Below the pieces are notes generated by a model. That model was not told where the DNA came from. It searched no databases and saw nothing but the letters and a program-made list of their open reading frames with translations. Below, piece after piece: positions 1,121 to 59,775 of a stretch of DNA of 64,000 bases. The number at the start of each line of letters is the position of its first letter. The first letter of the stretch is position 1. This DNA is from Argopecten irradians (Eukaryota; Mollusca; Bivalvia; Pectinida; Pectinidae), in the NCBI RefSeq assembly GCF_041381155.1, contig NC_091135.1:65871067-65935066 (forward strand), read 5' to 3'. The translations under genes and the position numbers were made by a program.

Positions 1121-3636
1121 TTGTTTCTCTTAGATGGCATACATTAATTGCATCGGTATTGTTCTTGGTCCTAGTCGCCTTATATATATGTCAAGTTCAA
1201 ATCGTTTCATGAAAGCTTATAACTAGTAGACCGATATCTCAGATAGGTGATAAAAGTCACATTAGAATTCCATTACTTTTTACTTTCACGAGCTCACGAC
1301 TCCCTTATAGTAATCAAAATCGTAGTTTTTGATGTTGATATTAGTACGAGAAATGCTCGAAATGTTCGTTTTTTCTCTTTTTGTGTTGTTCTGATAACTA
1401 TTTAAACGGTACTTCGATATAAGATCAAATTAATTTAAAAAAAAAAAACAATATTTAGTACATATACTTAAATACACATAAGGATAATGTATGAGAACAT
1501 TTCAAAATGTTATCGATGTTCGCAAGGGTTATCTTTGTTACTTTGAAGATACTGTAATGCTGATTAATGATTTTGCATTTAGGTTAATTAAATCCTTATC
1601 CTTGAAATACTTTTTATAGTCTGTATTTCTCTTTAAAAATAAAGTTGAGATGCACAGAGAAAGAAATAAAGCTTTAAAATGAAATCTCAATGAATCAACA
1701 GAGCCAGAGAATTTCAAATGACAAAGGAAAACTAGAAATAGTGATTATACACATGTAGATAGTTACTCCCTGATACTGGTCAAAAGTCAAGTACACCTCC
1801 TATCGTCGTTTATCATAAGTCAATACGGCAGCTATTTTAATACTGCACGTTATGAGTAGTGCTGGATTTAAAGGGATAACTCGATGAGGCTGGTTCAAAT
1901 TATATAATCATGAAGCAAAATAGGGTAAAATATATTCTGCATTCCTTAAACATGAAACAAAAATATTGCCAAATTCCACGAAATTGTTATTTAATAACTA
2001 ATTTAATTGTACCGTTGAAATTCAAAATCGTATAGCTAAACGTAGCAGAGGAAGTTTGTAATAACAGAGGACTTTTCTGGCATATCACAGGAATAACATC
2101 CATTAGAACTGGTTTGTTTCTGATATGTATGTAAATTTAGATGCACTCATACACTAAGTTGTCATTTTAACCAATATGGGCTTAAAGGCTGCTTTGAATA
2201 ATTTAACTTTTAACCTATTTGTAGAAAAGAAGTAATTATAGTCTTGTTTTAACATCGGTCACACTATGGGTTTTAAATGCGGTAATCTAGATTTGAAAGC
2301 AATACATGACACTAAGCGTTAACAGAATATTTATCTCGAATCTGGGTTCGGCAGTCGGCACCGCTGTATACAAAGAGAGAGAGAGCGATCGCACACGAGT
2401 TCACAAAGGATGTGACTTTCGCTAGGAGCCAATTAGTAATACAAAGGGTTTGTATCTGACGAATTTTGAAATTGGATCACTTTGAGTATAAACATGTTAA
2501 CACTGAAACGACGTTAGAACTCTACATTTATGCATGCTCTTGATACACAATTGATTATTCTAATTACGAAGCTGAAGTTGTTCATTACACATTACTCGCA
2601 CACATATACCTTTCATTTAACAGGTATGTAAGGTCGTTATATATATTAGAAGAGTGCATGCGTAGTTTGAAAGACCGTTATATTAGTATTATCGCCTACC
2701 AAATCTGCTACGTATTCGATATATTATGAAGTGGCAATTATATAGTATAGTTTTTACTAAATTTCAAGCGTTTTGATTATCAGATACTTCAGTTTCGACA
2801 AATGATGATTGCTGACACAATATCTTTTAGTGCTGACACAATATCTGTCAGTGCCCTAATGTGTATTTCATGATGAGATGAAATATATTGCACCAGTATA
2901 TAGGTCGCAGTTTTATCTGGTTAGTGTGCCTACTGATACAACTTATATCCTGATCAGTAGATAAAATACCGATAAAACGTAGGTGAGTTGTACCACCCAT
3001 CATGTAACTAACGTCAAGGTTAGCAGTTCTGAAGTCAGCATCTCATTAACTACCCGTAACCACCAATATTCATGAAATCTGCAGATATCTAGTAATTTCT
3101 CATGCTATATATAAAAAGTATATTATTTGTTACCAGATAAAGAAATAATTTATCTGCCGGACTAGTAAAGGCGGTGTGCTGTTGATCTTGGGCTTTCCAA
3201 ATCCTGATAATCTATATTGACTCTTACGTGTTATCTTAAACTAGATCTAGGAGTGATTTATCCTTATCAACAATTGTCCAGTACATGTAGCCTGGCGTGC
3301 TATATACCTGATTGTCATCCTTCAGGAAATGATTTGTCACTATCTAATATCAAGGCTATCTCTAAAAGACGTAATTCAGCATTAAGGAAAAAAACGTTTA
3401 AGTCCACCTCATCTTGTCTACTTCTGAACAATACAATTAAATTAATAATGATACGAAAATTAAATTTATATTTCAACCTGGTACGAAACATTTTCAAGTT
3501 CTTTAAATAAAGAAGTTATGAGGATCTAGGTCAATAATCGATTTGTTTATATGAAATAAACTCGAATTGTTTGTACACACATTTATTTTGTTAAAATTCA
3601 AACAATGACAGGGTGAATAATATACACAGCGTATTT
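1121..3636. other. Intergenic sequence, no gene seen
   Basis: AT-rich sequence with a short AG-dinucleotide run near 2376 and short homopolymers. A 97-residue open frame (3217-3510) lacks splice context and any recognisable motif, so it is not called. Nothing else could be supported. Confidence 0.5.
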
Positions 3637-3856
3637 CAGTAATGATCTTACTTTAATTCATAAAGTCTACCTTCAGTAATGATCTTACTTTAATTCATAA
3701 AGTCTACCTTCAGTAATGATCTTACTTTAATTCATAAAGTCTACCTTCAGTAATGATCTTACTTTAATTCATAAAGTCTACCTTCAGTAATGATCTTACT
3801 TTAATTCAAAAAGTCTACTTTCAGTAATGATCTTACTTTAATTCATAAAGTCTACC
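3637..3856. repeat. 37-bp tandem repeat, 6 copies
   Basis: The unit begins 'cagtaatgatcttactttaa' and ends 'agtctacctt'. Six copies span 220 bp and are almost identical; the fifth differs by 'caaaaagtctactttc'. High identity suggests recent expansion or homogenisation. Confidence 0.95.
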
Positions 3857-4055
3857 TAAAGAAAAATCACAAAAATGATTTACTCTAATACATCATTCAA
3901 ACTGACAGGGATGTTATCAAACTTCTGTTGAAGACGAATTAATGTTTCAGATTAAAATAATTAAAATATATAACTTCACATTAAGAAAATGTTTCTAAAT
4001 TAGGTAGATCGCTTGAAAAAACAACATTGTATAAATACTACTTACATCAGACGGC

Positions 4056-14466: not shown

Positions 14467-14587
14467 TTATACACTGACTTCTATTTTACAATATTCATTT
14501 CCTTTTCCCTTTGATACTCGCAAGACAGCGCCATTTTTTGTTTCGTCTGTAACTAGTTCTAGGAAACTTTCCGCTACCGTCTCTGTC
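14467..14587 (-). CDS. HPGD: HPGD-like exon 7: C-terminus and stop
   Basis: 121 nt, acceptor TTGTTTCAG, phase 2 in. It encodes A227-T-E-T-V-A-E-S-F-L-E-L-V, then K-N-G-A-V-L-R-V-S-K-G and ends in V-S-V TAA. The N-G-A-V-L segment is the last SDR core strand. Confidence 0.9.
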
Positions 14588-17500
14588 CTGAAACAATGTA
14601 AATAAAAACTCAACCCAAAGACATCATAAATACAAAATTAATTAAAAGGTCTAAATGAAATCATATCGTTGTAATCATTATTTCTTTATCGCTTTTGATG
14701 GAATTCACATTTTGGTATCAAATTTATGTAATGTGAATCCTCTATTTGACTAAAATGCGAAAAAGACTTACGCCATGATACCGTGAAAATTAAGGAATTT
14801 CGTGACTTTTGCGGAGTTTTCTGATTTCGTCTGTTCATCGTCGTGTAAAGAAAATGGTGAGATGTTTTTAACGAGGTTTGTGTCAGCAAAGGATGGACAT
14901 AAGGCATTTATCCGTATACCACATTTCTGGACATCCTCGTTTACCTTGGGTAAAGAAAAAACACCTTTATAACGCTGGAAGATATATAGAACGAATTTCG
15001 CTTGATTTCATTTTCAGACTAATTTTGGTAAAATAATTTTGTTCTGGTAATAAAACTCTATTGATATAATAAATGACCTGCGATAATTTTTTTTTATAAA
15101 ATATGACCATGTAAAACAATTGATTAATTATTCTTATTTTTGATAAAGAAATTATGTTACTGAAACGGTCACAACACATGGTTATATAGTTATATGGTAG
15201 AAACGTTATATTATATTACTGTTATGGTAATAAGGTGGCGCTGAGTATATTTAACATTTTATCATCCTGTCACATTTTTTAAGTATTGACATAAAATTGC
15301 TTTATGCGAACAACTGTTGCTGTTAATCTGCATATCCCTATACACTTACAGTTAACGACCTTGTGAGTAATATATATATATATAACTAACTTACAGCTAA
15401 CGATCTGGTGAGTGAGATAATGACATTTTTAAATTACAGCTAACGATCTGTTGAGTGAGATAATGATAGTTTTAACTTACAGCTAACGATCTGTTGAGTG
15501 AAATTATGACAGTTTTACTTACAGCTCATGATCTGGTGAGTGAGATGATAATAGTTTTAACTTATAGCTAACGATCTGGTGAGTGAGATAATGACAGTTT
15601 TAACTTATAGCTAACGATCTGGTGAGTGAGATGATGATAGTTTTAACTTACAGCTAACGATCTGTTGAGTGAAATTATGACAGTTTTAACTTACAGCTCA
15701 TGATCTGGTGAGTTAGATAATGACAGTTTTAACTTATAGCAAACGATCTGTTGAGTGAGATGATGATAGTTAAAAATTACAGCTAACGATCTGTTGAGTG
15801 AGATGATGATAGTTTAAAATAACAGCTAACGATCTGTTGAGTGAAATTATGACAGTTTTAACTTACAGATCATGATCTGGTGAGTGAGATGATGATAGTT
15901 TTAACTTACAGCAAACGATCTGTTGAGTGAGATGATGATAGTTTAAAATTACAGCTAACGATCTGTTGAGTGAAATTATGACAGTTTTAACTTATAGCTA
16001 ACGATCTGTTGAGTGAGATGATGATAGTTTTAACTTACAGCAAACGATCTGTTGAGTGAGATGATGATAGTTTAAAATTACAGCTAACGATCTGATGATG
16101 AATTATGACAGTTTTAACTTATAGCTAACGATCTGTTTGAGTGAGACAATGCCAGTTTTAAACTTATAGCTAACGATCTGTTGAGTGTGATAATGACAGT
16201 TTTAACTTACGGCTCACGATCTTGTGATTGAGATAATGACAGTTTTAACTTAAAGCTAACGATCTGGTGAGCGAGATGATGATAGTTTTAACTTACGGCT
16301 AACGATCTGTTTAGTGAGATGATGATAGTTTTAACTTAAAGCTAACGATCTGTTGAGTGAGATGATGATAGTTTTAACTTAAAGCTAACGATCTGTTGAG
16401 TGTGATAATGACAGTTTTAACTTATAGCTAACGATCTGGTGAGTGAGATGATGCTAGTTATAACTTACAGCTAGCGATCTGGTGAGTGAGATAATGACAG
16501 TTTTAACTTACAGCTAACGATCTGGTGAGTTAGATAATGACAGTTTTAACTTATAGCTAACGACCTGTTGAGTGAGATGATGATAGTTTTAACTTATAGC
16601 TAGCGATCTGGTGAGTGAGATAATGACAGTTTTAACTTATAGCTAACGATCTGTTGAGTGAGACAATGCCAGTTTAAACTTATAGCTAACGATCTGTTGA
16701 GTGTGATAATGACAGTTTTAACTTATAGCTAACGATCTGTTGAGTGTGATAATGACAGTTTTAACTTATAGCTAACGATCTGGTGAGTGAGATAATGCCA
16801 GTTTAAACTTATAGCTAACGATCTGTTGAGTGTGATAATGACAGTTTTAACTTACGGCTCACGATCTTGTGATTGAGATAATGACAGTTTTAACTTATAG
16901 CTAACGATCTGGTGAGCGAGATGATGATAGTTTTAACTTACGGCTAACGATCTGTTGAGTGAGATGATGATAGTTTTAACTTACAGCTAACGATCTGTTG
17001 AGTGAGATGATGATAGTTTTAACTTAAAGCTAACGATCTGTTGAGTGAGATGATGATAGTTTTAACTTACAGCTAACGATCTGTTGAGTGAGATGATGCT
17101 AGTTATAACTTACAGCTAACGATCTGTTGAGTGAGATGATGCTAGTTATAACTTACGGCTAACGACCTGGTGAGTGAAATGATAGCGGTTTTGGTAGCAC
17201 AGTAGACTGGCGACATAGGATTGACCGACAAACCTAGAAGAAAGAAGGGTAACCTGTATTTAAAACATGACTTGATTTTACATCGTGAGAAACATGATAA
17301 ATTGAAAAAATACGCACATGTTAATAAGTTAATGTCTATTTTAATCGTCTGTTGAAGTAACCATTGAAAAAATCCACATTTATATAAGTACGTTGTAAAT
17401 GATAGAATATAGTAATGCATTCATTTTTATTGAATACTTTACAAAATAAAATTGTCTTAAGTTAGACATGTCTTGCAATCAAATTTTCGGCAAGTGTGAG

Positions 17501-20500
17501 GGCATATACATGTACTTGAGTTAACGAAGGGAAAGAGACTAAAGGAGAACCTGCATTTATTTATGATATATCCCAGTTATACATAATCTATTGGTAATTG
17601 TCACACTTGACATGAGAAATGATGACTATGAATTAGCAGTGACACAGTAACAACATAAATACCACCTATTTGTCAAAACTGTTATTAAGTGGAGTGATTT
17701 ATCTGTTAAGTTGTTACTACATGTCAGATATACACGAACATTTTGACGACAAAATCACATTGTATTACGCACTCGATCAAGGCATACCTCAAATGATTGA
17801 ATTACTGAATCAGCAATTTGCGGATTAAAGATTTTATGAAAATACAAACTTGAAACCATAAATATAAAAAGTATTAAAACGAAACGTATTCTAATAACCT
17901 TTACCTTACTAGAGGTGTAGGTTAATAACCGTCAACACATGTATGTCAACGACATGGGTGACCCGTTTAGTCAGATTTTCAGTGACGCAAAGTCGGTCAG
18001 GTCATAACTATAGACGTTCAAATTGCACGCATTTATTCCAATTTAGGTTTACTTGGTAACTTTGTTAATCTTTTTAACCTATATGTAAACAAAAGTGAAC
18101 GATTTAAAACAAATAGATCTTTGATAACTTTTATGAATGGTGTTTTACTAAACATAAACACATGTAGTACATTCTATACGAAACATTGTATCAGAATTAA
18201 AAAACACAAAATTAAAGCTAGAAACATCAAAATAATAGAGGAATGTAGAAATGAAATTATAAGTATGATATCATAATTTTACAGATCATGAAATATGTAC
18301 TGTTTTGCTAACATTTTAGGTTTTAGTGCATGATATTATTTTTGCTATTTTCGTGCAGTTTAGGGGCAAGCGTGGAATCGTTACACGTGATGTTGGAAAT
18401 TATATTTTCTTTGATGCTATCAATACATGGATGATACGTTATCGATATAACATTCCCAATAGCAGGGCACTGACATAAGCATGATAAAATTGGCTGATAT
18501 CTCTGTATTCTTACATAATGTTATTGACAATTTTCTATCTCCATGAAATGTGATAAAACTAGATAATGTTAACGGATACCAAGTAAACAACTACACTCTT
18601 ATATGACATCTACAAATCTACGACGTATATCGTTCGAATAACACTGGTAAATATTTTCACAATTACTTTTTGTCTGTAAAATTTAAGTTACCTTTGAAAA
18701 GAAGATGTTACAAAATCTGTGTAAAGCATGGACCAATGCGTCTGTTTTTTCCGAAATGTAGAGAATATTGTAATATACATAAGAATTAGGTAAGCGTTAT
18801 ACTGGTATCTAAATATATAAACACACTTTACCTCCCTTTGGTATTTCCGTAGTTATAAATATGGATTATAATGTTAATACTAGGGACTTGTTTACCTGCC
18901 GCCGATGATATATTGATGATCACGCCTCCGTTTCCGCCTTTATCATTTCGGAGATATTCAAAAGCAATAAACGATCCCCTTGTCATTCCTTTCTGTAAAT
19001 AGACATATATTTAGTATATTTTCCTTGATTGTCATTGGATGGAATACTGCATCTAAATGACTGCGCTGGAATGTGTGTCACTTCGCAATTTGCACTGTAA
19101 GGGCATATATCATACTATATATTTGCAAAACTACACCTTTATATGACTTACATTTGACGATTTCTTTGACATTTATGAACTTACAAACTCGAATCAAACT
19201 TAATGTATAAAAGGATGATATCACATCAAATCTTTGTTTGTTCATATAAACTGGCTGTCGAAATTGGCGTTCACTTAATTCTTAAAACAGACCTTGATAT
19301 AAAACAACAAATTGTGTTGAGAAAATATAAATGAAATGTTCGGAATTTAGAGACTCACTGTACATTGCTTACTCATTATTTTATCCGTAATAGAGCCAAG
19401 TCAAAATGGAACAGGAGTTTGATATTGTTAGGGCTATTTCGTCGTATATTATTTCTCCATTTATAGGGATGTCATAAGAGAAGCTATCATCGATAGAAAA
19501 TCGACCGGGTCTCTATCACTTACAATATATTAGTCGAATAAGTTACTCGTGAAGAATTAATTGAATTTTATCTTTATATACCTTAATAAAATGACAAGTA
19601 GTGATCATACTCGAATACATTTTGGTCAAGTCAACAGATTTTATCTTATCTGTACGTTAAATTGAATGTAAAACTCCTGAACCAGATGATCGATGAACAT
19701 AATGAAGAACAGTTAGTTATAATAATTAACGCTAGACCATGAAACACAAGTTGTTTTGAAGATAGAAAGCAGAATGTAACATTAGTAAAGTTTACATTAT
19801 CGATAAGTTTAAAATTAAAAAATCTAACAAAATATCTCCTATCACTCTTTTATATTATAGCGATTCTTCCTTTGTAAGATGTACTCTTGGTTGTTTTTTA
19901 TCTGCGTCCTATCGACAGCCAGGGCCATTTCAGAAAGGCTTCTCGTATATGTGGCGTATTGCGTGCTTGTTTTTTGGGAAGCTGTTGAATATTCATGTTG
20001 TATCTCTTTGTTATAATGGAACTAAGTAATGCACATATTGCAAACAATGATCATTTTGTTTCATTTTCCCCAAGCATTGAAAACATTAAAGAGTATTTAT
20101 AACACATACTTTTTATTAGACCTGATCGCATTACGTACGATGTTCACGTCGACGACTTTCTCCCACTGAGGGTACGTCTCTCCGCCTGTACCAGCGTTGT
20201 TACAAACTATGTCAATTTGTCCATATCGCTCCTTCGTCGCCTTAAACAGAGCTGAAAGGTAAAGCAAAACAGTCGATGTTTGAAACAGTTTAAAACATTA
20301 AAAAAACTTAGTGATATAATCAACTATCGTTAAATTGTCTGTGGCAAATAATTTTAAACGCATGACCTATTCATATACTAACTAGTTTTATTGAAAATGA
20401 TAAATTCATAGTATAACAAGTTCATTATAGGCAATATCATTAACCACAATATAAGATAAGCTAGTGTGGATTTCCCGGCGATTGTTGAACTGGCCCATGT

Positions 20501-26500: not shown

Positions 26501-29500
26501 CGTCATATTAAAAGTCAATTAAGCATTGAACGTCTTTCAGTTGGTATTCATAGCCAATATGAATGCAAACTGGACAGACGCAAATTCAATGAAGCGTGCC
26601 AGCGCTTTATGTTGAATTTCCCTCTGTTCAGTTGGCATTCATATTGGCTATGAATGCCAACTGAAAGACGTTCAATGCTTATATTTACATTTGGTTACAC
26701 TTTTATGATGTAATCCCAAGGAATTTTGGATGTATAATGAATAATCATTCGTTATCGTCATGGATGGAACAGCCATTTGAACAGCCGACTTTCGTGATCG
26801 CTGGCACGACAATTGTGATAATGACGTCATAATAAGCGCTTGAAGTTCATTGTCTATATGACTACCAACTGCTTTTGGTAAGGTTACATAGATGGACTGC
26901 AGTGAAAACGTAAATATTGTCATTTAAGGACGTTCACACTGTAAACATTGCGTGTGTTTTAGAAAACTGCGGTATATCCGTATGCTATTTCAATGCACAA
27001 AGCCACCAAAGACACCGAACAGCACACCCCAACAAGCAAAACTATACTGCCAACGGCCAAAGCAGTCTCCCAAACCACCTTTATACTGAGGGCTAAGTAG
27101 GACCAGAAACTACCACTATGGTGTCTCGCCCAGGGAACAGAACCGAGATTCTTCCCCACAGAGACAAGCGCTACACTACTAAGACCAAAAAGCTAGGCGA
27201 TTTCAATGGAAAAGGTAGAAAGAAGAAATTCAATTAGGAAGAAAAGAAAATATACGATTTCAATTTTATAGTCTCGTTTACGGTTATATAATAGTGTTGT
27301 TCTTTGTAATAACCAAAATTTAAATGTATGTTTAGTAGTGTTATATCACTGAATCGTAATGACGACAGACACTTCGCGCCCATTCGGTCACATTAAAATG
27401 ATATCATGCGAATCAGCTATACATTGCATTACTAAATTTATGCTGAACAAAGAAAAACGGTTTTCCGGAAGTAAACGATTTACTTGTTTTTATTTATATA
27501 ATTATCGTGTTTGCGAAACAGTGCGCACTACACAACATGAAAGTATAAATATTTCACGAACGGTTATATTGTTAATCTTTTGACCATATGAATGATAATT
27601 CATTTTTTTCCAAATAATATTACAACAAAATTTTCTTATGAACTATCAAAGTCCTTTAATGCGGCTTTCCTGTATGATTTTTTTAAAATGTGGAATGATG
27701 TTGTGTATTATGATAGACTAAATATGATTATAGCCAAACAATCCACACAGAGAACGTCAGGGTCACAATCAAACAACCCACACAGAGAACTTCATGGTCA
27801 CAACCAAACAATACACACAGTGAACGTCAGAATCACAACCAAACAACCCACACAGAGAACGTCAGGACCACAACCAAACAATCTACACAGAGAACGTCAG
27901 AATCACAACCAAACAACCCACACAGAGAACTTCAGGACCAAAACCAAACAATCTACACAGAGAACGCCAGGATCACAACCAAACAACCCACACAGAGGAA
28001 GTCAGGATCACAACCAAACAACCCACACAGAAAACTTCAGGATCACAGCCAAACAATACACACAGGAAACGTCTTGGATCACAACCAAACAATCCACACA
28101 GAGAACGTCAGGATCACAGCCAAAAATCCACACTGAGAACGTCAGGATCACAACCAAACAATGCACACCGATAACGTCAGGATCACAACCAAACAAGCCA
28201 CACAGAGAACGTCAGGATCACAACCAATCAATCCACACAGAGAACGTCAGGATCACAACCAAACAATCCACACAGAGAACGCCAGGATCACAACCAAACA
28301 ATCCACATAGAGAGAACGTCAGGATCACAACCAAACAATCCACACAGAGAACGTCAGGATCACAACCTAACAATCCACACAGAGAACGTCAGGATCACAA
28401 CCAAACAATCCACATAGAGAACGTTAGGATCACAACCAAACAATCCACACAGAGAACGTCAGGATCACAACCAAACAATCCACACAGATAACGTCAGGAT
28501 CACAACAAAACAATCCACACAGAGAACGTCAGGATCACAACCAAACAACCCACACAGAGAACGTCATGATCACAACAAAACAATCCACACAGAGAACGTC
28601 ATGATCTCACCCAAACAATCCACACAGAGGAAGTCAGGATCACAATCAAACAACCTACACAGAGAACGTCAGAATCACAACCAAACAACCCACACAGAGG
28701 AAGTCAGGATCATAACCAAACAACCCACACAGAGAACGTCAGGATCACAACCAAACAATACACACAGAGAACGCCAAGATCACAACCAAACAATCGACAC
28801 AGATAAGGTCAGGATCACAACCAAACAATCCACACAGAGAACGTCAGGATCATAACCAAACGACAAACACAGAGAACGTCAGGATCACAACAAAAAAATC
28901 CACACAGAGAACATCATGATCACAACCAAACAATCCACTCAGAGAACGTCAGGATCACAACCAAACAACACAAACAGAAAACTTCAGGATCACAGCCAAG
29001 ACATCTTTTGGAATAAACAACCAATACATAATTATTAAATCTGAGCGAGAAAGGTGTTTCTACTAATTACTAACATTAATTATGCAGTTTTGATTTCATT
29101 GCTTTAACATGACAGTAATTACTACCTATTTCTAAAAACATCATAAAACTTGTTGATGTTTAACTTCACTATACGTGAAATCAACTTGTTTTTGTTTTTG
29201 CCCTAATTGCATAATTGTAAAAGGCAGCTAAATTTGAGATCTTTTCCAATCGTTTTGATTGAAGTTCTCCTTCCAAACGTCCAATTTGAAATTGTGTGAT
29301 ATTTGGTCTTGTGTTAATATTCGCCTCGGGCTATAAGGAAGGGTTCTGTCTCCTGACCAAGACACATCATTGCCTATAATCTTGCCTGTTGTCAGTATGT
29401 GACTGGATTATGTGTGCTATATTCTTTAGTTATATAGTACTTAATATTACCAGAAGTTTCCTTTGTTACAAGGAGATACGACATTAGTACACCGAAGTCC

Positions 29501-32500
29501 CCCAATAACACATGCACGCATCACATGCAACATGTTTCTTTCACATGGTAGACCTTTTAATTTACCCTAGCGTTTAATCATTGTTAAGTACGCACTCATA
29601 TGGCAAAACAAAAGACAATTAACAAAACACTCGAATTACATCAATGTCTTGATAATATGTGACGTACCTTCCATCTCCTCCTGACTTGTGACGTCACAAC
29701 GTTGGAACATAACATTGTCGGGTCCATATTTATCTGCAAGTTGTTTTAAGGTGGCCTCACCCTGATTAGCATTGATATCGCAGAAACTGACCTAAAAATA
29801 AAGGGAGGTTAATTACGATTCACTTTTTTTGAGAGACGGCTGGTTGACGGCTTAGATCGCACTCACTTTCTTCTAAGCGCAGGAACATAAACATTCTACC
29901 ACTTTATAGACTATGGAGTGTTTCAGCTAGGAGGTTAAGCTTATGGTCAAACGTGAGGCGGTGCCAAGGGAGACGCTAGGAAGAAGGTTAGTAAGGACAA
30001 ATATATAAGATACTCGGAAAAGTTAGGTTTAATTGACTGGTGACACTGGTCATATTAATCCATGTCCTGGTGTCATGTGTGTGATGTTGAAGTAACAATG
30101 GCTTTGGAGGCGTTTATGACCCCCCCCCCCACTCTCACGTTAACAGCGTAAATCCTGTCTCGTTCACAAGGTAATACAATCGTTCACAAGGTAATACAAT
30201 CAAAATATGCACTTCTGCGGTGTACTTTTTAGGCATTTAATTATTATTATTAATTTATTATGTAAAAACCTGACAACTACAAATATCAAATTACTTTGTA
30301 TGTGTGGTACAGCTTGATCAGGCGTGTTTGTAAGCGTCATCTGCTTTGGAAAACTTCGACAGATATCCATCTACACGGATAAAAATCATTAATGAACAAT
30401 TTGAATACATTAAATCAATATTTATAGATAGCATTTGATTGAAATACTGTTTTAAACGTTTTATTACCAATTTTTATTGAATTATCAATATATGATTGAA
30501 ACTATGTTTTCAAATGTTTTATTACAACTATTAAGTTTTTTTATGATATTATAGTATGATATGATTTATTATTTTTATTTTACAGACACCCTGCATTACA
30601 GACAGACACTGTACGCGACATCTGCTATTATGGTTGGTGCATTACTAAAATATGAACAGAACATGTTTCTCATAGAAAAAACCTAGAGATGCATGTATTT
30701 GTCACGCTCATTTTCAGCTATGTGTTAGCCTGATTGAAAAAAAGGACATATCAACTACAATTCCTGACTGAACACTTCAGTCGAACTTACCCAAATAACA
30801 CTAATATTCTAGAGAAGGTTGTGTTAACTTAGGGCCGGTAAATCTCGTGTTCATACCAATTACGTTCGTAATATATGTATGAGGATCGTTTATAATGAGT
30901 AATTTTGAAATTATAGTAATTTGGATACATACTCGGTGATAGACAATTATTAATATATTATTTTGAGTTTAGATTATTGAAACAAACTAATTATTTTATC
31001 GCTATTATGATCCTTGAAGAACCATTTACCTTAATGACTCATGCAAGAAAACCAAAATGGTCAAATACAAGAACAGTGGGATAATAAGAAACAAGAGGCC
31101 CAAAAGGCCTTGACGGTCACCTGAGTGCTGCTACAGAAAGAGCATTGCAAAGTTGGTTCAAATATATAAAAAATATTTACGTATCAAAATAAACTATAAA
31201 GTTGAACTCTCGTATTAGAATTTTTATTTTTGGTTTTTCATTTTGATAGTTAGTGTATTATGTTACCAAACCTTATGCTTAAAATTCCAATTTAGTTTGC
31301 TAACGTTAAATAACAAAACCAAACTAGAAGTCAGTCAGTGTCAGTGATTTTATAAATTTCACTTTTAATCTATGGAGATTATTTGGTTCCATCAAACCTG
31401 TGAATTCAGAAGAAGATTTTTGAAATTTTAGCCATTTTGACCCCACCCCTCTGGTCCCTGGGGGTCAGCCAGGACCAATATGGATATGGTGTCAATATGG
31501 ATATGGTGTTAAAATGCTATTTCAAAACTAAGCAAATAATGTTCATAAATGTGTTTTTCCTATTTAGACTATAGTAAATTTGACCCCCTCCCTAGGGGAA
31601 AATCTGAGATCCCAGGGCCATGAAACTCACAATTTTTGTAACGGGCCTTAAGACCTTCCAATCTATGAAGAGTATTTGATTCCATCACATCTGTGAGTGG
31701 AGAAGAAGATTTTTGAAATTATAGTCAATTTTAACCCTTTTGCCCCTCCCACAGCCCCCAGGGGAGTGGGGACCATATATTTCACAACTTTGATTGGCCT
31801 TATGCCTCAGAAGGTTTGTGCAAAATTTCATTGAATTTGCTTCAGCGGTTTTTGAGAAGTCGAAAATGTAAATTGTTTACAGACATACGACGCACGACGA
31901 CGGACAAATGGCGATTAGAATAGGTCACTTGAGACTACGTCTCAGGTGACCTAAAAACGAAAGTGTAAACGAAAATAAATAATTTGTCGATATGAAAACT
32001 GAGGAGTATATTTTGACACTAGATACTGAACAATATAATGATGACAGCTTGATTTCTAGGTCAAGTGTGGAAGTGACCGTCCATAGATCATGCCAATCGA
32101 TTCCTTCCAATACTGTTCAGTGTTTATTGTTCCTGTATATTGGCATGTTGAGTTTAGCGCGTGTTAGATGAAAAGTCAATTTCACTTTTAATGTCTATAG
32201 ACAATTGATAATCTTATCTTTAATGTCAACATCACCGTTACAGGCGATATATAGCTCTCATAAGTGACTGTATGTATGTCATTTAGACCGGTTGTTCTGG
32301 GTATGAACTTTAATACCCTTACAAAATACAAACAAAACATGGTCTCTTTATGTGATATGAATTGTTTCCCTAGATCATACCAATGACTTCATTACTTAAT
32401 ACGAGATATGTAATTTAGTGAATCTCAAAGTCAGTTCTATGAATACGAAGCATGCGAGAAACTATTTGCCTTATGTGTTTAACGGTTATACTCTGAATTT

Positions 32501-35500: not shown

Positions 35501-35653
35501 GTAAGTATTGAGAGATTAGAGTGACATACATCATCAACAGTTGACACATTCACTGCTTACCTTTGCTTCCTTGTCGAGTAGAGCCTGAACAAATGCATAT
35601 CCGAGACCCTGAGCGCCTCCCGTCACAAGCGCAACCTTGCCCTGTATCTGCAT
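14467..35653 (-). CDS. HPGD: 15-hydroxyprostaglandin dehydrogenase-like SDR, whole gene, 7 exons
   Basis: Coding segments 35653-35561, 29791-29668, 20251-20122, 18978-18896, 17233-17157, 14944-14772 and 14587-14467 join to 801 nt, giving 266 residues plus stop, the same length as human HPGD. Classical SDR features are in order: T11-G-G-A-Q-G-L-G18 for the dinucleotide, D36 after the second strand (favouring NAD+ over NADP+), D64-V, N90-N-A-G, N109, then the S141, Y154-C-A-T-K158 catalytic set. HPGD oxidises the 15-hydroxyl of prostaglandins in the cytosol; invertebrate relatives may use other substrates. Two residues before P-V-Y, equivalent to human Gln147-Gln148, are Met-Ser here. Introns are large (up to 9.4 kb). 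The exon 3/exon 4 junction uses weak splice sites. Start: first ATG after an in-frame TAA. SDR assignment is very sure; orthology to HPGD is likely but rests on memory of the family. Confidence 0.88.
14588..14771 (-). other. HPGD: HPGD-like intron 6
   Basis: A 184-bp GT-AG intron, the shortest of the gene. No internal feature is seen. Confidence 0.85.
14772..14944 (-). CDS. HPGD: HPGD-like exon 6: substrate lid region
   Basis: 173 nt, acceptor TTTCTTTACCCAAG with a strong pyrimidine tract, donor GTAAGTC, phase 0 in and phase 2 out. It encodes V170 to M226, including C-G-I-R-I-N-A-L-C-P-S-F-A-D-T-N, the SDR segment after the active site (usually P-G; here P-S), and a variable lid ending F-H-G-I-M. 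Confidence 0.9.
14945..17156 (-). other. HPGD: HPGD-like intron 5, mostly minisatellite
   Basis: A 2.2-kb GT-AG intron. About 1.8 kb of it is the 43-bp array described separately. The remaining ~400 bp next to exon 6 is AT-rich unique sequence with the branch and acceptor region. Confidence 0.85.
15344..17156. repeat. 43-bp minisatellite derived from HPGD exon 5 / intron 5 junction, ~42 copies
   Basis: On the plus strand the unit is 'acttacagctaacgatctgt' followed by 'tgagtgagatgatgatagtttta'. On the gene strand it reads ATCATCTCACTCAACAGATC, then GTTAGCT/GTAAGT. The real exon end is ATCATTTCACTCACCAGGTC, GTTAGCC/GTAAGT. So units retain sequence equal to I-I-S-L-T/N-R-S-L-A and an intact-looking 5' splice site. 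Copies vary: ACC/AAC, GTGA/TTGA, 'gataatgacag' against 'gatgatgatag'. Higher-order runs of variants are visible. The leftmost copies (15344-15420) are the most degenerate and contain a TA run. The array abuts the exon with no gap. Confidence 0.95.
17157..17233 (-). CDS. HPGD: HPGD-like exon 5: catalytic Tyr and Lys
   Basis: 77 nt, acceptor TTTCTTCTAG, donor GCC/GTAAGTTATAAC, phase 1 in and phase 0 out. It encodes G144-L-S-V-N-P-M-S-P-V-Y154-C-A-T-K158 and ends T-R-S-L-A169. Its last ~27 bases and the donor are the apparent source of the 43-bp array that begins right behind it. Confidence 0.92.
17234..18895 (-). other. HPGD: HPGD-like intron 4
   Basis: A 1.66-kb GT-AG intron. AT-rich; no repeat or coding feature is supported. 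Confidence 0.8.
18896..18978 (-). CDS. HPGD: HPGD-like exon 4: catalytic Ser
   Basis: 83 nt, phase 2 in and phase 1 out, donor GTAAACA. It encodes G117-S-F-I-A-F-E-Y-L, then G-G-V-I-I-N-I-S-S141-A-A. The in-frame acceptor is ATGACAAG/GGGATC. A better-looking TTTACAG lies 14 nt upstream (AG at 18993-18994), but it puts a TGA after two codons with either donor of exon 3. Confidence 0.8.
18979..20121 (-). other. HPGD: HPGD-like intron 3
   Basis: A 1.14-kb intron bounded by a weak GTCTAAT donor and a weak ATGACAAG acceptor. A fragment of the 'tctgcgtcctatcgacagcc' repeat-tail type is present near 19901-19920. Confidence 0.7.
20122..20251 (-). CDS. HPGD: HPGD-like exon 3: NNAG motif
   Basis: 130 nt, acceptor CCTTTCAG, phase 1 in and phase 2 out. 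It encodes A73 to the first two bases of R116, including Y-G-Q-I-D-I-V-C-N90-N-A-G and V-D-V-N109. The donor used for the family-consistent product is ATCAG/GTCTAAT, which is weak. A stronger GTATGTG lies 14 nt further on and would add four residues in frame. Confidence 0.82.
23940..24240 (+). mobile_element. Dispersed SINE-like element, diverged copy
   Basis: Landmarks 'gagtgggacgactggtt', 'gcggcatgcttta', 'gcactataaaaagggcaa', 'aacacgaatatactg' and 'accctggctatcgatag' match the family consensus. The central 'cagtataatgtgaccgg' core is replaced by unrelated sequence. Confidence 0.65.
25590..25850 (+). mobile_element. Dispersed SINE-like element, 3' part
   Basis: Contains 'gttgtcagtgtaatgcgacc', 'tggcagtatacttcagggga', 'cacaacacgaacatactgca', 'gtctcccaaaatcacgc' and 'atgggaggccgttcttg', all in family order. 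The tail is missing. Confidence 0.7.
26522..26679. mobile_element. 158-bp MITE with ~51-bp terminal inverted repeats, TA target duplication
   Basis: The left end 'agcattgaacgtctttcagt' and the complement of the right end match over about 51 bp with very few mismatches (for example ggtattc/ggcattc). TA lies on both flanks (26520-26521 and 26680-26681), as expected for Tc1/mariner-type insertion. It has no coding capacity. Confidence 0.88.
26955..27240 (-). mobile_element. Dispersed SINE-like element, minus orientation
   Basis: Reverse landmarks: 'aactgcggtatat', 'aaagacaccgaacagcacac', 'ccagaaactaccactatggt', 'gtctcgcccagggaacagaa'. It is a diverged copy missing its tail. Confidence 0.65.
27728..28998 (+). 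repeat. 35-bp minisatellite, ~36 copies, consensus open in three frames
   Basis: The unit is 'aatccacacagagaacgtca' followed by 'ggatcacaaccaaac'. Because 35 is not a multiple of 3, translation cycles through all frames and gives a 35-residue period with T-Q-R-T-S-G-S-Q-P-N-N, H-R-E-R-Q-D-H-N-Q and T-E-N-V-R-I-T-T-K-Q segments. The consensus has no stop in any plus frame, so a long open frame runs from ATG 27592 to 28491. It sits antisense in HPGD intron 2, without splice or promoter evidence, so it is scored as a repeat and not as a gene. Confidence 0.93.
29668..29791 (-). CDS. HPGD: HPGD-like exon 2: NAD-binding Asp region
   Basis: 124 nt, acceptor TTTTTAG, donor GTACGTC, phase 0 in and phase 1 out. 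It encodes V32-S-F-C-D36-I-N and R62-C-D64-V, aligning without gaps to the human protein around D36 and D64. Confidence 0.92.
29895..30030 (-). repeat. Fragment of the dispersed SINE-like element
   Basis: 'agactatggagtgt', 'gtgaggcggtgccaagggag' and 'cgctaggaagaaggttagta' match the family in reverse order. Ends are not resolved. Confidence 0.5.
31089..31955 (+). mobile_element. Non-autonomous element with GGTCACCTGAG inverted ends and two internal modules
   Basis: It opens with 'aaacaagaggcccaaaaggc' and GGTCACCTGAG (31115-31125) and closes with CTCAGGTGACC (31941-31951). The 3' end is a hairpin: 'aggtcacttgagac' and 'gtctcaggtgacct' with a 3-nt loop. Inside, two ~290-bp-spaced modules share 'tctatg..gattatttg.ttccatca' and 'gaagaagatttttgaaatt', each followed by a 'cccctgggg' type motif. 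There is no coding capacity. The family is common in bivalve DNA; its transposition class is uncertain. Confidence 0.7.
35561..35653 (-). CDS. HPGD: HPGD-like exon 1: Rossmann glycine motif
   Basis: 31 codons, from M-Q-I-Q-G-K-V-A-L-V-T-G-G to D-K-E-A-K, with donor GTAAGC in phase 0. It contains the TGxxxGxG dinucleotide motif at residues 11-18. Upstream codons in the same frame reach a TAA without an ATG. Confidence 0.92.
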
Positions 35654-39039: not shown

Positions 39040-42000
39040 GGTAGTTTCTGCTCCAGCTTAGAGTTTAACATAAAGAGAGATGATGACTGGGTTTCTCGTT
39101 GTCAGTATAATATGACCGGATGGGGTGTGTTGTTCGGTGTCTTTGTCAGTATAATGTGACCGGGTGGGGTGTGTTGTTCGGTGTCTTTGTCAGTATAATG
39201 TGACCGGGTGGGGTGTGTTGTTCGGTATCTTTGTCAGTATAATGTGACCGGGTGGGGTGTGTTGTTCGGTATCTTTGTCAGTATAATGTGACCGGGTGGG
39301 GTGTGTTGTTCGGTATCTTTGTCAGTATAATGTGACCGGGTGGGGTGTGTTGTTCGGTATCTTTGTCAGTATAATGTGACCGGGTGGGGTGTGTTGTTCG
39401 GTATCTTTGTCAGTATAATGTGACCGGGTGGGGTGTGTTGTTCGGTATCTTTGTCAGTATAATGTGACCGGGTGGGGTGTGTTGTTCGGTATCGTTGTCA
39501 GTATAATGTGACCGGGTGGGGTGTGTTGTTGTTCGTATATCTTTGTCAGTATAATGTGACCGGGTGGGGTGTGTTGTTCGGTATCTTTGTCAGTATAATG
39601 TGACCGGGTGGGGTGTGTTGTTCGGTATCTTTGTCAGTATAATGTGACCGGGTGGGGTGTGTTGTTCGGTATCTTTGTCAGTATAATGTGACCGGGTGGG
39701 GTGTGTTGTTCGGTATCTTTGTCAGTATAATGTGACCGGGTGGGGTGTGTTGTTCGGTATCTTTGTCAGTATAATGTGACCGGGTGGGGTGTGTTGTTCG
39801 GTGTCTTTGTCAGTATAATGTGACCGGGTGGGGTGTGTTGTTCGGTGTCTTTGTCAGTATAATGTGACCGGGTGGGGTGTGTTGTTCGGTGTCTTTGTCA
39901 GTATAATGTGACCGGGTGGGGTGTGTTGTTCGGTATCTTTGTCAGTATAATGTGACCGGGTGGGGTGTGTTGTTCGGTATCTTTGTCAGTATAATGTGAC
40001 CGGGTGGGGTGTGTTGTTCGGTATCTTTGTCAGTATAATGTGACCGGGTGGGGTGTGTTGTTCGGTATCTTTGTCAGTATAATGTGACCGGGTGGGGTGT
40101 GTTGTTCGGTATCTTTGTCAGTATAATGTGACCGGGTGGGGTGTGTTGTTCGGTATCTTTGTCAGTATAATGTGACCGGGTGGGGTGTGTTGTTCGGTAT
40201 CTTTGTCAGTTAATAATGTGACCGGGTGGGGTGTGTTGTTCGGTATCTTTGTCAGTATAATGTGACCGGGTGGGGTGTGTTGTTCGGTATCTTTGTCAGT
40301 ATAATGTGACCGGGTGTGGGGTGTGTTGTTCGGTATCTTTGTCAGTATAATGTGACCGGGTGGGGTGTGTTGTTCGGTATCTTTGTCAGTATAATGTGAC
40401 CGGGTGGGGTGTGTTGTTCGGTATCTTTGTCAGTATAATGTGACCGGGTGGGGTGTGTTGTTCGGTATCTTTGTCAGTATAATGTGACCGGGTGGGGTGT
40501 GTTGTTCGGTATCTTTGTCAGTATAATGTGACCGGGTGGGGTGTGTTGTTCGGTATCTTTGTCAGTATAATGTGACTGGGTGGGGTGTGTTGTTCGGTAT
40601 CTTTGTCAGTATAATGTGACGGGGTGGGGTGTGTTGTTCGGTATCTTTGTCAGTATAATGTGACCGGGGGGGGTGTGTTGTTCGGTATCTTTGTCAGTAT
40701 AATGTGACCGGGTGGGGTGTGTTGTTCGGTATCTTTGTCAGTATAATGTGACCGGGTGGGGTGTGTTGTTCGGTATCTTTGTCAGTATAATGTGACCGGG
40801 TGGGGTGTGTTGTTCGGTATCTTTGTCAGTATAATGTGACCGGGTGGGGTGTGTTGTTCGGTATCTTTGTCAGTATAATGTGACCGGGTGGGGTGTGTTG
40901 TTCGGTATCTTTGTCAGTATAATGTGACGTGTGGGGTGTGTTGTTCGGTATCTTTGTCAGTAATAATGTGACCGGGTGGGGTGTGTTGTTCGGTATCTTT
41001 GTCAGTATAATGTGACCGGGTGGGGTGTGTTGTTCGGTATCTTTGTCAGTATAATGTGACCGGGTGGGGTGTGTTGTTCGGTATCTTTGTCAGTATATGT
41101 GACCGGGTGGGGTGTGTTGTTCGGTATCTTTGTCAGTATAATGTGACCTTGTGGGGTGTGTTGTTCGGTATCTTTGTCAGTATAATGTGACCGGATGGGG
41201 TGTGTTGTTCGGTATCTTTGTCAGTATAATGTGACCGGGTGGGGTGTGTTGTTCGGTATCTTTGTCAGTATAATGTGACCGGGTGGGGTGTGTTGTTCGG
41301 TATCTTTGTCAGTATAATGTGACCGGGTGGGGTGTGTTGTTCGGTATCTTTGTCAGTATAATGTGACCGGGTGGGGTGTGTTGTTCGGTATCTTTGTCAG
41401 TATAATGTGACCGGGTGGGGTGTGTTGTTCGGTATCTTTGTCAGTATAATGTGACCGGGTGGGGTGTGTTGTTCGGTATCTTTGTCAGTATAATGTGACC
41501 GGGTGGGGTGTGTTGTTCGGTATCTTTGTCAGTATAATGTGACTGGTGTGGGGTGTGTGTTCGGTATCTTTGTCAGTATAATGTGACCGGGTGGGGTGTG
41601 TTGTTCGGTATCTTTGTCAGTATAAACGGGTGGGGTGTGTTGTTCGGTATCTTGTCAGTATAATGTGACGGGTGGGGTGTGTTGTTCGGTATCTTTGTCA
41701 GTATAATGTGACCGGGTGGGGTGTGTTGTTCGGTATCTTTGTCAGTATAATGTGACTGGGTGGGGTGTGTTGTTCGGTATCTTTGTCAGTATAATGTGAC
41801 TGGGTGGGGTGTGTTGTTCGGTATCTTTGTCAGTATAATGTGACTGGGTGGGGTGTGTTGTTCGGTATCTTTGTCAGTATAATGTGACCGGGTGGGGTGT
41901 GTTGTTCGGTATCTTTGTCAGTATAATGTGACCGGGTGGGGTGTGTTGTTCGGTATCTTTGTCAGTATAATGTGACCGGGTGGGGGTGTGTTGTTCGGTA

Positions 42001-44745
42001 TCTTTGTCAGTATAATGTGACCGGGTGGGGTGTGTTGTTCGGTATCTTTGTCAGTATAATGTGACCGGGTGGGGTGTGTTGTTCGGTAACTTTGTCAGTA
42101 TAATGTGACCGGGTGGGGTGTGTTGTTCGGTATCTTTGTCAGTATAATGTGACCGGGTGGGGGTGTGTTGTTCGGTATCTTTGTCAGTATAATGTGACCG
42201 GGTGGGGTGTGTTGTTCGGTATCTTTGTCAGTATAATGTGACCGGGTGGGGTGTGTTGTTCGGTATCTTTGTCAGTATAATGTGACCGGGTGGGGTGTGT
42301 TGTTCGGTATCTTTGTCAGTATAATGTGACCGGGTGGGGTGTGTTGTTCGGTATCTTTGTCAGTATAATGTGACCGGGTGGGGTGTGTTGTTCGGTATCT
42401 TTGTCAGTATAATGTGACCGGGTGGGGTGTGTTGTTCGGTATCTTTGTCAGTATAATGTGACCGGGTGTGGGGTGTGTTGTTCGGTATCTTTGTCAGTAT
42501 AATGTGACCGGGTGGGGTGTGTTGTTCGGTATCTTTGTCAGTATAATGTGACCGGGTGGGGTGTGTTGTTCGGTATCTTTGTCAGTATAATGTGACCGGG
42601 TGGGGTGTGTTGTTCGGTATCTTTGTCAGTATAATGTGACCGGGTGGGGTGTGTTGTTCGGTATCTTTGTCAGTATAATGTGACCGGGTGGGGTGTGTTG
42701 TTCGGTATCTTTGTCAGTATAATGTGACCGGGTGGGGTGTGTTGTTCGGTATCTTTGTCAGTATAATGTGACCGGGTGGGGTGTGTGTTGTTCGGTATCT
42801 TTGTCAGTATAATGTGACCGGGTGGGGTGTGTTGTTCGGTATCTTTGTCAGTATAATGTGACCGGGTGGGGGTGTGTTGTTCGGTATCTTTGTCAGTATA
42901 ATGTGACCGGGTGGGGTGTGTTGTTCGGTATCTTTGTCAGTATAATGTGACCGGGTGGGGTGTGTTGTTCGGTATCTTTGTCAGTATAATGTGACCGGGT
43001 GGGGTGTGTTGTTCGGTATCTTTGTCAGTATAATGTGACCGGGGGTGTGGGTGTGTGTGTTCGGTATCTTTGTCAGTATAATGTGACCGGGTGGGGTGTG
43101 TTGTTCGGTATCTTTGTCAGTATAATGTGACCGGGTGGGGTGTGTTGTTCGGTATCTTTGTCAGTATAAATGACCGGGTGGGGTGTGTTGTTCGGTATCT
43201 TTGTCAGTATAATGTGACCGGGTGGGGTGTGTTGTTCGGTATCTTTGTCAGTATAATGTGACCGGGTGGGGTGTGTTGTTCGGTATCTTTGTCAGTATAA
43301 TGTGACCGGGTGGGGTGTGTTGTTCGGTATCTTTGTCAGTATAATGTGACCGGTTGGGGTGTGTTGTTCGGTATCTTTGTCAGTATAATGTGACCGGGTG
43401 GGGTGTGTTGTTCGGTATCTTTGTCAGTATAATGTGACCGGGTGGGGTGTGTTGTTCGGTATCTTTGTCAGTATAATGTGACCGGATGGGGGTGTGTTGT
43501 TCGGTATCTTTGTCAGTATAATGTGACCGGGTGGGGTGTGTTGTTCGGTATCTTTGTCAGTATAATGTGACCGGGTGGGGTGTGTTGTTCGGTATCTTTG
43601 TCAGTATAATGTGACGGGTGGGGTGTGTTGTTCGGTATCTTTGTCAGTATAATGTGACCGGGTGGGGTGTGTTGTTCGGTATCTTTGTCAGTATAATGTG
43701 ACCGGGTGGGGTGTGTTGTTCGGTATCTTTGTCAGTATAATGTGACCGGGTGGGGTGTGTTGTTCGGTATCTTTGTCAGTATAATGTGACCGGGTGGGGT
43801 GTGTTGTTCGGTATCTTTGTCAGTATAATGTGACCGGGTGGGGTGTGTTGTTCGGTATCTTTGTCAGTATAATGTGACCGGGTGGGGTGTGTTGTTCGGT
43901 ATCTTTGTCAGTATAATGTGACCGGGTGGGGTGTGTTGTTCGGTATCTTTGTCAGTATAATGTGACCGGGTGGGGTGTGTTGTTCGGTATCTTTGTCAGT
44001 ATAATGTGACCGGGTGGGGTGTGTTGTTCGGTATCTTTGTCAGTATAATGTGACCGGGTGGGGTGTTGTTCGGTATCTTTGTCAGTATAATGTGACCGGG
44101 TGGGGTGTGTTGTTCGGTATCTTTGTCAGTATAATGTGACCGGGTGGGGTGTGTTGTTCGGTATCTTTGTCAGTATAATGTGACCGGGTGGGGTGTGTTG
44201 TTCGGTATCTTTGTCAGTATAATGTGACCGGGTGGGGTGTGTTGTTCGGTATCTTTGTCAGTATAATGTGACCGGGTGGGGTGTGTTGTTCGGTATCTTT
44301 GTCAGTATAATGTGACCGGGTGGGGTGTGTTGTTCGGTATCTTTGTCAGTATAATGTGACCGGGTGGGGTGTGTTGTTCGGTATCTTTGTCAGTATAATG
44401 TGACCGGGTGGGGTGTGTTGTTCGGTATCTTTGTCAGTATAATGTGACCGGGTGGGGTGTGTTGTTCGGTATCTTTGTCAGTATAATGTGACCGGGTGGG
44501 GTGTGTTGTTCGGTATCTTTGTCAGTATAATGTGACCGGGTGGGGTGTGTTGTTCGGTATCTTTGTCAGTATAATGTGACCGGGTGGGATGTGCTTGTTC
44601 GGTGTCTTCGGCAGTATACTTCAGTTTAAGACAGCAGTGTAAAAAGGAGCCACATCACAAATATACCGCAGCCTCTCAAAACATACACCCATCCACAAAT
44701 TGCGGGACATTGCATCCTGGATATTGATAGGACGTTAGTCTAATA
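39040..44745 (+). mobile_element. SINE-like element copy inflated by an internal satellite
   Basis: The left flank of the array is family sequence ('tggtagtttctgctccagct', then 'gatgactgggtttctcgtt'). The right flank is the continuation ('gtcttcggcagtatacttca', 'gtgtaaaaaggagccac', 'aaatataccgcagcctctca', 'gataggacgttagtctaata'). So a ~500-bp element has become ~5.7 kb by internal tandem expansion. Confidence 0.85.
39101..44613 (+). repeat. 44-bp satellite array, ~125 copies
   Basis: The unit is 'gtcagtataatgtgaccggg' followed by 'tggggtgtgttgttcggtatcttt'. Most copies are identical. Rare variants are 1-4 base indels, 'gactggg' for 'gaccggg' (clustered near 41745-41830), and 'cggtgtc' for 'cggtatc' (at the left end, near 39795-39890 and in the last copy). 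The family's normal core has 'cggtgtc', so that is likely the ancestral form and 'cggtatc' the amplified form. High identity means the copy number in an assembly may be wrong. Confidence 0.97.
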
Positions 44746-46251: not shown

Positions 46252-46672
46252 GCGACATAAGTGTAGTCATTATTACACCTGCAGGTATGAGAGAAAGCCT
46301 CAGACGACATGAATGTAGTCAGTATTACATCTGCTGGTATGAGAGAAATCCTCAGACGACATGAATGTAGTCAGTATTATATCTGCTGGTATGAGAGAAA
46401 TCATCAGACGACACGAGTATAGTCATTATTATATCTGCTGGTATGAGAAAAATCCTCAAACGACACGAATGTAGTCAGTATTATATCTGCTGGTATGAGA
46501 GAAATCCTCAGACGACACGAGTGTAGTCATTATTATATCTGCTGGTATGAGAGAAATCCTCAGACGACATGAATGTTGTCAGTATTACATCTGCTGGTAT
46601 GAGAGAAATCCTCAGACTACATGAATGTAGTCAGTATTACATCTGCAAGTATGAGAGAAATTCTCATTGCAT
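46252..46672. repeat. 52-bp tandem repeat, ~8 copies
   Basis: The unit is 'gtagtcagtattacatctgc' followed by 'tggtatgagagaaatcctca' and 'gacgacatgaat'. Copies differ by a few substitutions, for example 'cattatta' for 'cagtatta' and 'cacgagt' for 'catgaat'. A diverged trace of the unit ('ggtatgagagaaatatact') also occurs near 49560. Confidence 0.92.
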
Positions 46673-59557: not shown

Positions 59558-59775
59558 GGTAGTGAAGTGCACTCTAGTGCACAAGTAAAGTTAACTCCGG
59601 TTCACTAGCTAGTGCAATAGAGTTAACATCGTAGTGCACTAGAGTTAACATCGTAGTGCACTAGAGTTAACACTGTAGTGCACTAGAGTTCACATTGTAG
59701 TGCACTAGAGTTAACAACGTAGTGCACTAGAGTTAACACTGTAGTGCACTAGAGTTCACATCATAGTGCACAAGA
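59558..59775. repeat. 22-bp tandem repeat just inside the left TIR
   Basis: The unit 'gtagtgcactagagttaaca' plus 'tc' repeats about 7 times regularly from 59609, with degenerate copies from 59558. Each unit holds the palindrome 'tagtgcacta'. No counterpart is seen beside the right TIR. Confidence 0.9.

Follow-up and report, generated by a model that had tools for sequence, protein, structure and literature searches.

A minisatellite of degenerate exon-end and splice-donor copies in intron 5 of an HPGD-like gene of Argopecten irradians

How the spliceosome selects a single site from several equal ones is a long-standing question, and it is raised by a stretch of 64,000 nucleotides of the Argopecten irradians genome (contig NC_091135.1, positions 65,871,067 to 65,935,066; hereafter the window), where the real 5' splice site of exon 5 of an HPGD-like gene stands beside 18 copies with about equal predicted pairing to U1. 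These copies form part of a 43-bp minisatellite within intron 5 that resembles the mirage minisatellites of lancelets. We consider it probable, at roughly 0.85, that the array arose in the Argopecten lineage by a duplication of the exon 5/intron 5 junction that subsequently expanded, that the true donor is the one in use and that the copied donors are mostly neutral baggage. This reading is supported by the register of the units, their abutment on the junction, their above-chance similarity to it, the genome-wide uniqueness of the unit core and the presence of other junction-crossing arrays.

Tandem Repeats Finder (TRF) reported a repeat at 15387–17183 with a period of 43 and 41.8 copies. Wrap-around alignment in the direction of the gene resolved 42 units running directly on from the source segment, from 17149 down to 15342 (Table 1). 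The unit spans the exon–intron boundary, comprising the end of exon 5 and the start of intron 5, and unit 1 starts at 17149, adjoining the authentic junction that the array copies. The majority unit was identical to the source segment at 35/43 positions (28/36 in the exon part and 7/7 in the intron part); transitions account for seven of its eight differences. The single units matched the source segment at 29–36 of 43 positions with a mean of 33.8. Over 200,000 trials, shuffled versions of the source reached at most 25/43, and in the window outside 15291–17250 no rotation of the unit on either strand exceeded 26/43, excluding a similarity at chance level. A preliminary description of this DNA had proposed about 42 units of 43 bp that resemble the end of exon 5 plus GTAAGT and abut their source exon; the unit number and the likeness were reproduced by the alignment, and the source segment is indeed immediately followed by the first unit.

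The 27 coding bases nearest the donor represent the certain homologous part, with 23/27 retained in the majority unit. The next nine bases upstream agree at 5/9 positions only, and their homology is ambiguous because the intron of two paralogues on C10, described below, also begins with GTAAGTTAT; these nine bases may be original intron and perhaps not an exon copy. Among themselves the units share 37.4/43 positions, compared to 33.8/43 with the source. Unit 42 at the far edge is the most divergent (14/43 positions differ), and units 1 and 2 on the exon side are not unusual. This combination of internal homogeneity and a divergent edge unit appears as in concerted evolution. For units 1–41, with unit 42 left out, similarity to the source showed no gradient with distance (Spearman −0.007).

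The host gene, located on the minus strand, encodes a 15-hydroxyprostaglandin dehydrogenase [NAD(+)]-like enzyme of the SDR type. Its seven exons, joined and translated, yield the public Argopecten irradians protein exactly (100% over 265 residues), assigned to the short-chain dehydrogenases in Pfam (PF00106), bearing out the HPGD-like identity given in the preliminary description. Judged from the sequence, the public protein corresponds to the product of true exon 5 donor use. Residues Y153 and K157, which we take to be the SDR active-site pair, were invariant in 12/12 aligned proteins, and the 36-nt exon part of the source segment opens with the codon of K157.

Table 1 Features of the HPGD-like locus (window positions) and junction-crossing arrays at other loci.
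Feature	Positions	Strand	Description	Basis
Minisatellite, mirage type	15342..17149	-	43-bp units, 42 in register, each copying the exon 5 end and donor in degenerate form	TRF, wrap-around alignment
Source segment	17150..17192	-	GTAAGTT preceded by at most 36 nt of exon 5 (codons K T A I I S L T R S L A); certain exon part 17157–17183	alignment
Exon 1, coding part	35561..35653	-	starts at ATG	joined exons = public protein
Exon 2	29668..29791	-		joined exons = public protein
Exon 3	20139..20251	-		joined exons = public protein
Exon 4	18896..18992	-		joined exons = public protein
Exon 5	17157..17233	-	77 nt, encodes Y153 and K157	joined exons; protein alignment
Authentic 5' splice site of exon 5	17151..17156	-	GTAAGT	joined exons = public protein
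Intron 5	14945..17156	-	2212 nt, of which the array takes 1808 nt	joined exons and unit alignment
Exon 6	14772..14944	-	true splice partner of exon 5	joined exons = public protein
Exon 7	14467..14587	-	includes stop codon	joined exons = public protein
L074, kinase			donor, 39-bp unit; within the stretch, the source is followed by 10 copies	
L077, kinase			acceptor, 46-bp unit; within the stretch, 8 copies precede the real site	
L086, kinase			acceptor, ~50-bp unit, one clean copy next to the real one, and an older array lacking the exon part	
L093, kinase			donor, 95-bp unit, one full copy plus a degraded part	
L047, P450	1939..3456 (of the locus)		acceptor, 42-bp unit; within the stretch, 35 copies (intron end and exon start) precede the real site	

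The sixth codon of the source segment provides a means of dating. It encodes Ser (TCA) in the Argopecten exon, a residue found at this position in 0/11 relatives, where the proteins of Pecten, Mizuhopecten, Ylistrum, oyster and Mytilus carry Ala and the other 5/11 carry Gly or Gln. The first base of this codon is T in 37 units and A in 5, never the G of an Ala codon, and Ser is read in 34/42 units. As no unit has the G of an Ala codon and most read Ser like the Argopecten exon, the array would have been seeded after the Ala-to-Ser change, or else it later converted the exon. The codon suggests that the array arose after Argopecten split from Pecten, Mizuhopecten and Ylistrum. In our proposal, a tandem duplication across the exon 5/intron 5 junction, with one breakpoint in each, would have occurred in the Argopecten lineage after this exchange in exon 5. 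With the full exon and its real donor retained in the exon-side copy, the extra copy would have become intronic and been tolerated, and slippage or unequal exchange would have expanded and shuffled the copies. Splicing would still proceed at the outermost, first-transcribed donor, the 17 intact decoys tested being predicted to give no open protein. Any decoy that is used would produce a truncated, probably degraded mRNA, thus imposing a small expression tax rather than acting as a switch.

Junction-crossing arrays also occur elsewhere in the genome. We surveyed 70 exon loci chosen by domain match and not by repeats. The 30 P450 loci, taken with 1.5 kb flanks, were the best of 100 listed matches; the 40 kinase loci, with flanks of 400 bp, were hand-picked down a list of 142 matches, with long open frames passed over and the repeats then unseen. 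At 5/70 loci, an array crosses a splice junction and carries copied exon sequence (4/40 kinase and 1/30 P450; two donors and three acceptors). Based on the density of 25 other arrays in the same flanks, about 0.75 would be expected for the kinases, where four were seen (Poisson P 0.007), and 0.45 for the P450s, where one was seen (Poisson P 0.36). Given the small sample, the approximate exon ends and the presence of at least five single long exons among the P450 matches, this excess is suggestive only, and mirages may be recurrent in the scallop genome. Several candidates were not counted: arrays near an exon that contain no exon copy (L065, also according to shuffles, and L094), a 14-bp match of 1.9 copies at a hit end that lies in an intron (L069), short arrays near P450 exons that cross no junction (L036, L038, L045, L051 and L057) and an array inside an exon (L091). 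Likewise left out of the count, a 45-bp array about 80 nt past the kinase exon of L070 resembles the end of that exon (5/2000 shuffles as good), and is possibly an older, displaced mirage.

We analyzed the state of the copied donors and their predicted products. The dozens of near-copy donors of the preliminary description are present, but only 18/42 units keep GTAAGT and 23/42 keep GT, with GTAATT or GTTATT in five. The +1 G is lost in 19/42 units, being replaced by A in 15 and by T in 4. Predicted U1 pairing of the 18 intact decoys ranges from −5.4 to −6.5 kcal/mol, compared to −5.7 kcal/mol at the true donor; five of these decoys lie among units 1–7, GTAAGT is intact in four of units 1–5, and four copies are identical to the real donor from −3 to +8. 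For the 17 of 18 intact decoys that were mapped (unit 42 left out), splicing would in each case lead to a stop four codons past the true junction, giving 172 instead of 265 residues. This stop lies 28 nt upstream of the new junction for unit 1 and at least 71 nt upstream for the other 16 decoys; by the usual rule, mRNAs of this kind would be prone to degradation. Since each mapped decoy would give a stop after 172 residues, the lengthened exon 5 isoforms that had been envisaged would encode truncated proteins. In a ranking of the unit's words from the least intact upward, GT takes 6th place among 43 dinucleotides and GTAAGT 14th place among 43 hexamers, the donor words being not unusually decayed and not unusually kept.

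Some observations weigh against an origin in the Argopecten lineage followed by neutral persistence. The dating depends on a single codon, compared via the proteins of the other scallops, and would not hold had the exon been converted by the array. Correct splicing is deduced from the public protein. Furthermore, the +1 column is the most often changed of the 43, with 12.8 inferred changes by parsimony (mean 2.2, next 9.0), and the +1 losses here and in the kinase array L074, where 7/10 copied donors lack the +1 G and the real donor is intact, could reflect selection against decoys. The array would then be slightly harmful, with donor-breaking mutations being favoured and spread by exchange, an explanation that we regard as unlikely but worth weighing. 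It would account for the two alternative losses of the +1 G and for the missing +1 G in the independent kinase array. Against this stand the ranks of the donor words, with GT only 6th and GTAAGT 14th, as well as the survival of GTAAGT in four of units 1–5, the very place at which purging should act most strongly. Moreover, the acceptor arrays retain AG, in 34/35 copies in L047 and in 6/8 in L077, and columns of intermediate frequency gain parsimony changes from exchange alone. Donor purging was therefore rejected as a claim, as parsimony ranks the +1 column first but the word-level ranks do not single out the donor. Signs of selection on the decoys are thus mixed.

An active role of the array appears still less probable. 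Here, the copies would bind U1 and divert transcripts to a stop-containing isoform, with array length tuning enzyme output, in line with 18/42 decoys whose predicted U1 pairing equals that of the real site (units 1–7 include five of these) and with all 17 mapped decoys leading to the early stop at the distances given above. However, the donor word shows no sign of preservation, being broken in 24/42 units and the 14th least intact window of 43, and the one Argopecten-named row among the 120 proteins listed of 2061 has the normal form, which is a weak test. In addition, one report suggests that amphioxus mirages leave splicing undisturbed (PMC3087553).

Far more remote is a scenario in which the repeat came first and the exon end was recruited from it. 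Exon and units are nearly one sequence, as this would imply, yet the exon 5 peptide aligns in 12/12 proteins compared, covering scallops, other bivalves, gastropods, Liolophura and zebrafish. Because the peptide is aligned from scallops to zebrafish, the exon is the source and not the product of the array. The unit core is also found nowhere else: allowing up to three mismatches, the 846-Mb assembly yielded 35 matches, all in the array and the source exon, and none for the reversed control. The link of an exon-derived repeat to the HPGD-like gene is thereby corroborated, and the preliminary description is partly supported, in the proposed origin from the exon end and donor of this gene only (alignment, genome search and peptide conservation); the consequences it listed stay hypothetical. 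An unrelated satellite lying by chance beside the exon has next to no credibility, since several other arrays in the window do lack a visible exon link but identity and register far beyond chance and a core without copies elsewhere both refute it.

The age of the intron can be judged from two related genes on C10, which have an intron at the same position and in the same phase as intron 5 of the HPGD-like gene. These two (L022 and L026, C10:13206000-13256000) form an inverted pair of closely similar SDR genes. Their intron after the exon 5 equivalent contains, further in, a 22-bp array rich in GTAAC/GTAAGG words, which shows no resemblance to the exon end of these genes (in sets of 2000 shuffles, 1483 and 745 scored equally well); the same control gave 0/2000 for the HPGD unit. 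As the C10 paralogues share position and phase of the intron but hold a different array, intron 5 looks older than its minisatellite. A new gain of the intron from mirage repeats, which would leave it absent from related genes, is contradicted by both paralogues having it at the same place and in the same phase.

Mirage minisatellites are described in amphioxus for Adh3 and the globins BflGb6 and BflGb9, and are reported too for TnC and PGBD5 (PMC3087553; PMC3902484). In these, AG/GT signals are kept in many but not all copies, the interior is homogenised with the boundary copies excluded, and an absence of interference with splicing is suggested (PMC3087553; PMC3902484). Mirages are discussed there as possibly a general cephalochordate phenomenon (PMC3087553). 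The scallop unit likewise spans and adjoins a boundary, splice signals are kept in part of the copies (23/42 GT), and the array is homogenised inside with a divergent edge unit 42. In contrast, its host is a bivalve and not a cephalochordate, it has 42 copies compared to 6 and 3 in two BflGb6 haplotypes, and it is known from one assembly. Further traits of the amphioxus kind are length polymorphism, somatic instability and normal mRNA splicing; the public scallop protein is in line with normal splicing. The scallop array thus fits the mirage kind, itself already known from lancelets. Among the titles and abstract starts listed in a literature search, none showed mollusc mirages, which is no proof of absence, as most subscription papers lay outside its coverage.

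A minisatellite of short unit at an exon–intron boundary of human IFI6 reportedly, by the title of a 1995 paper, supplies several splice donor sites to the transcript. There the donors would act in a real transcript, whereas predicted use of the scallop decoys leads to a stop after 172 residues. In human segmental duplications, internal tandem repeats of minisatellite length at exon–intron boundaries can alter splicing (PMC2812944). Those are copy-number differences between paralogues tied to novel introns (PMC2812944), whereas the scallop intron position is common to the paralogue pair.

What is new here could be the frequency of junction-crossing arrays in the scallop genome rather than the addition of one further mirage. 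Mirages in a bivalve, at 5/70 sampled exon loci, point to a possible general route of intron growth, and the arrays represent natural competition experiments within one genome. A bolder proposition, which we hold tentatively and with less than even expectation, is that splice junctions are birth hot spots of minisatellites in the scallop, with a large share of genes carrying donor or acceptor copies beside the real site. If true, the spliceosome would routinely have to select a single true site next to numerous near-identical decoys. DNA damage at junctions, linked to transcription or splicing, could then underlie these arrays, which would naturally feed intron growth and the emergence of cryptic exons. 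Genome-wide, AGGTAAGT occurs in 8740 tandem triples and its reverse in 886, the control word GATAGGAT in 1741 and its reverse in 3338, and CAGGTAAGTAT in 738 and its reverse in one, counting overlapping matches. Tandem strong donors are thereby 2.6 to 9.9 times as frequent as three control words, which is a hint only, as the matches overlap and the first ~100 listed places come from few arrays.

When eight arrays of the window (including that of intron 5) were compared with the rest of the window, an exon link was seen for the intron 5 array only. A very uniform array of 44 bp and 125 copies (98%) lies upstream of the HPGD-like gene at 39099–44618, with partial single relatives at ~54149, 37720, 36245, 25624 and 27053. 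Intron 2 of the gene harbours a 35-bp array of 36 copies (27734–28999) with no match elsewhere in the window, and further minisatellites without visible exon link are located at 2–326, 3635–3857, 46253–46666 and 59610–59775. The segment 31110–31960 has GGTCACCTGAG / CTCAGGTGACC ends and is apparently an interspersed repeat, of a type presumably common in bivalves. Finally, the HPGD protein of Mytilus edulis (P0005) contains extra near-copies of the end of exon 4 (SSAAAGKF..VNVSSAQ), as if a duplicated exon end and donor had been read through; the M. galloprovincialis protein (P0009) lacks them.
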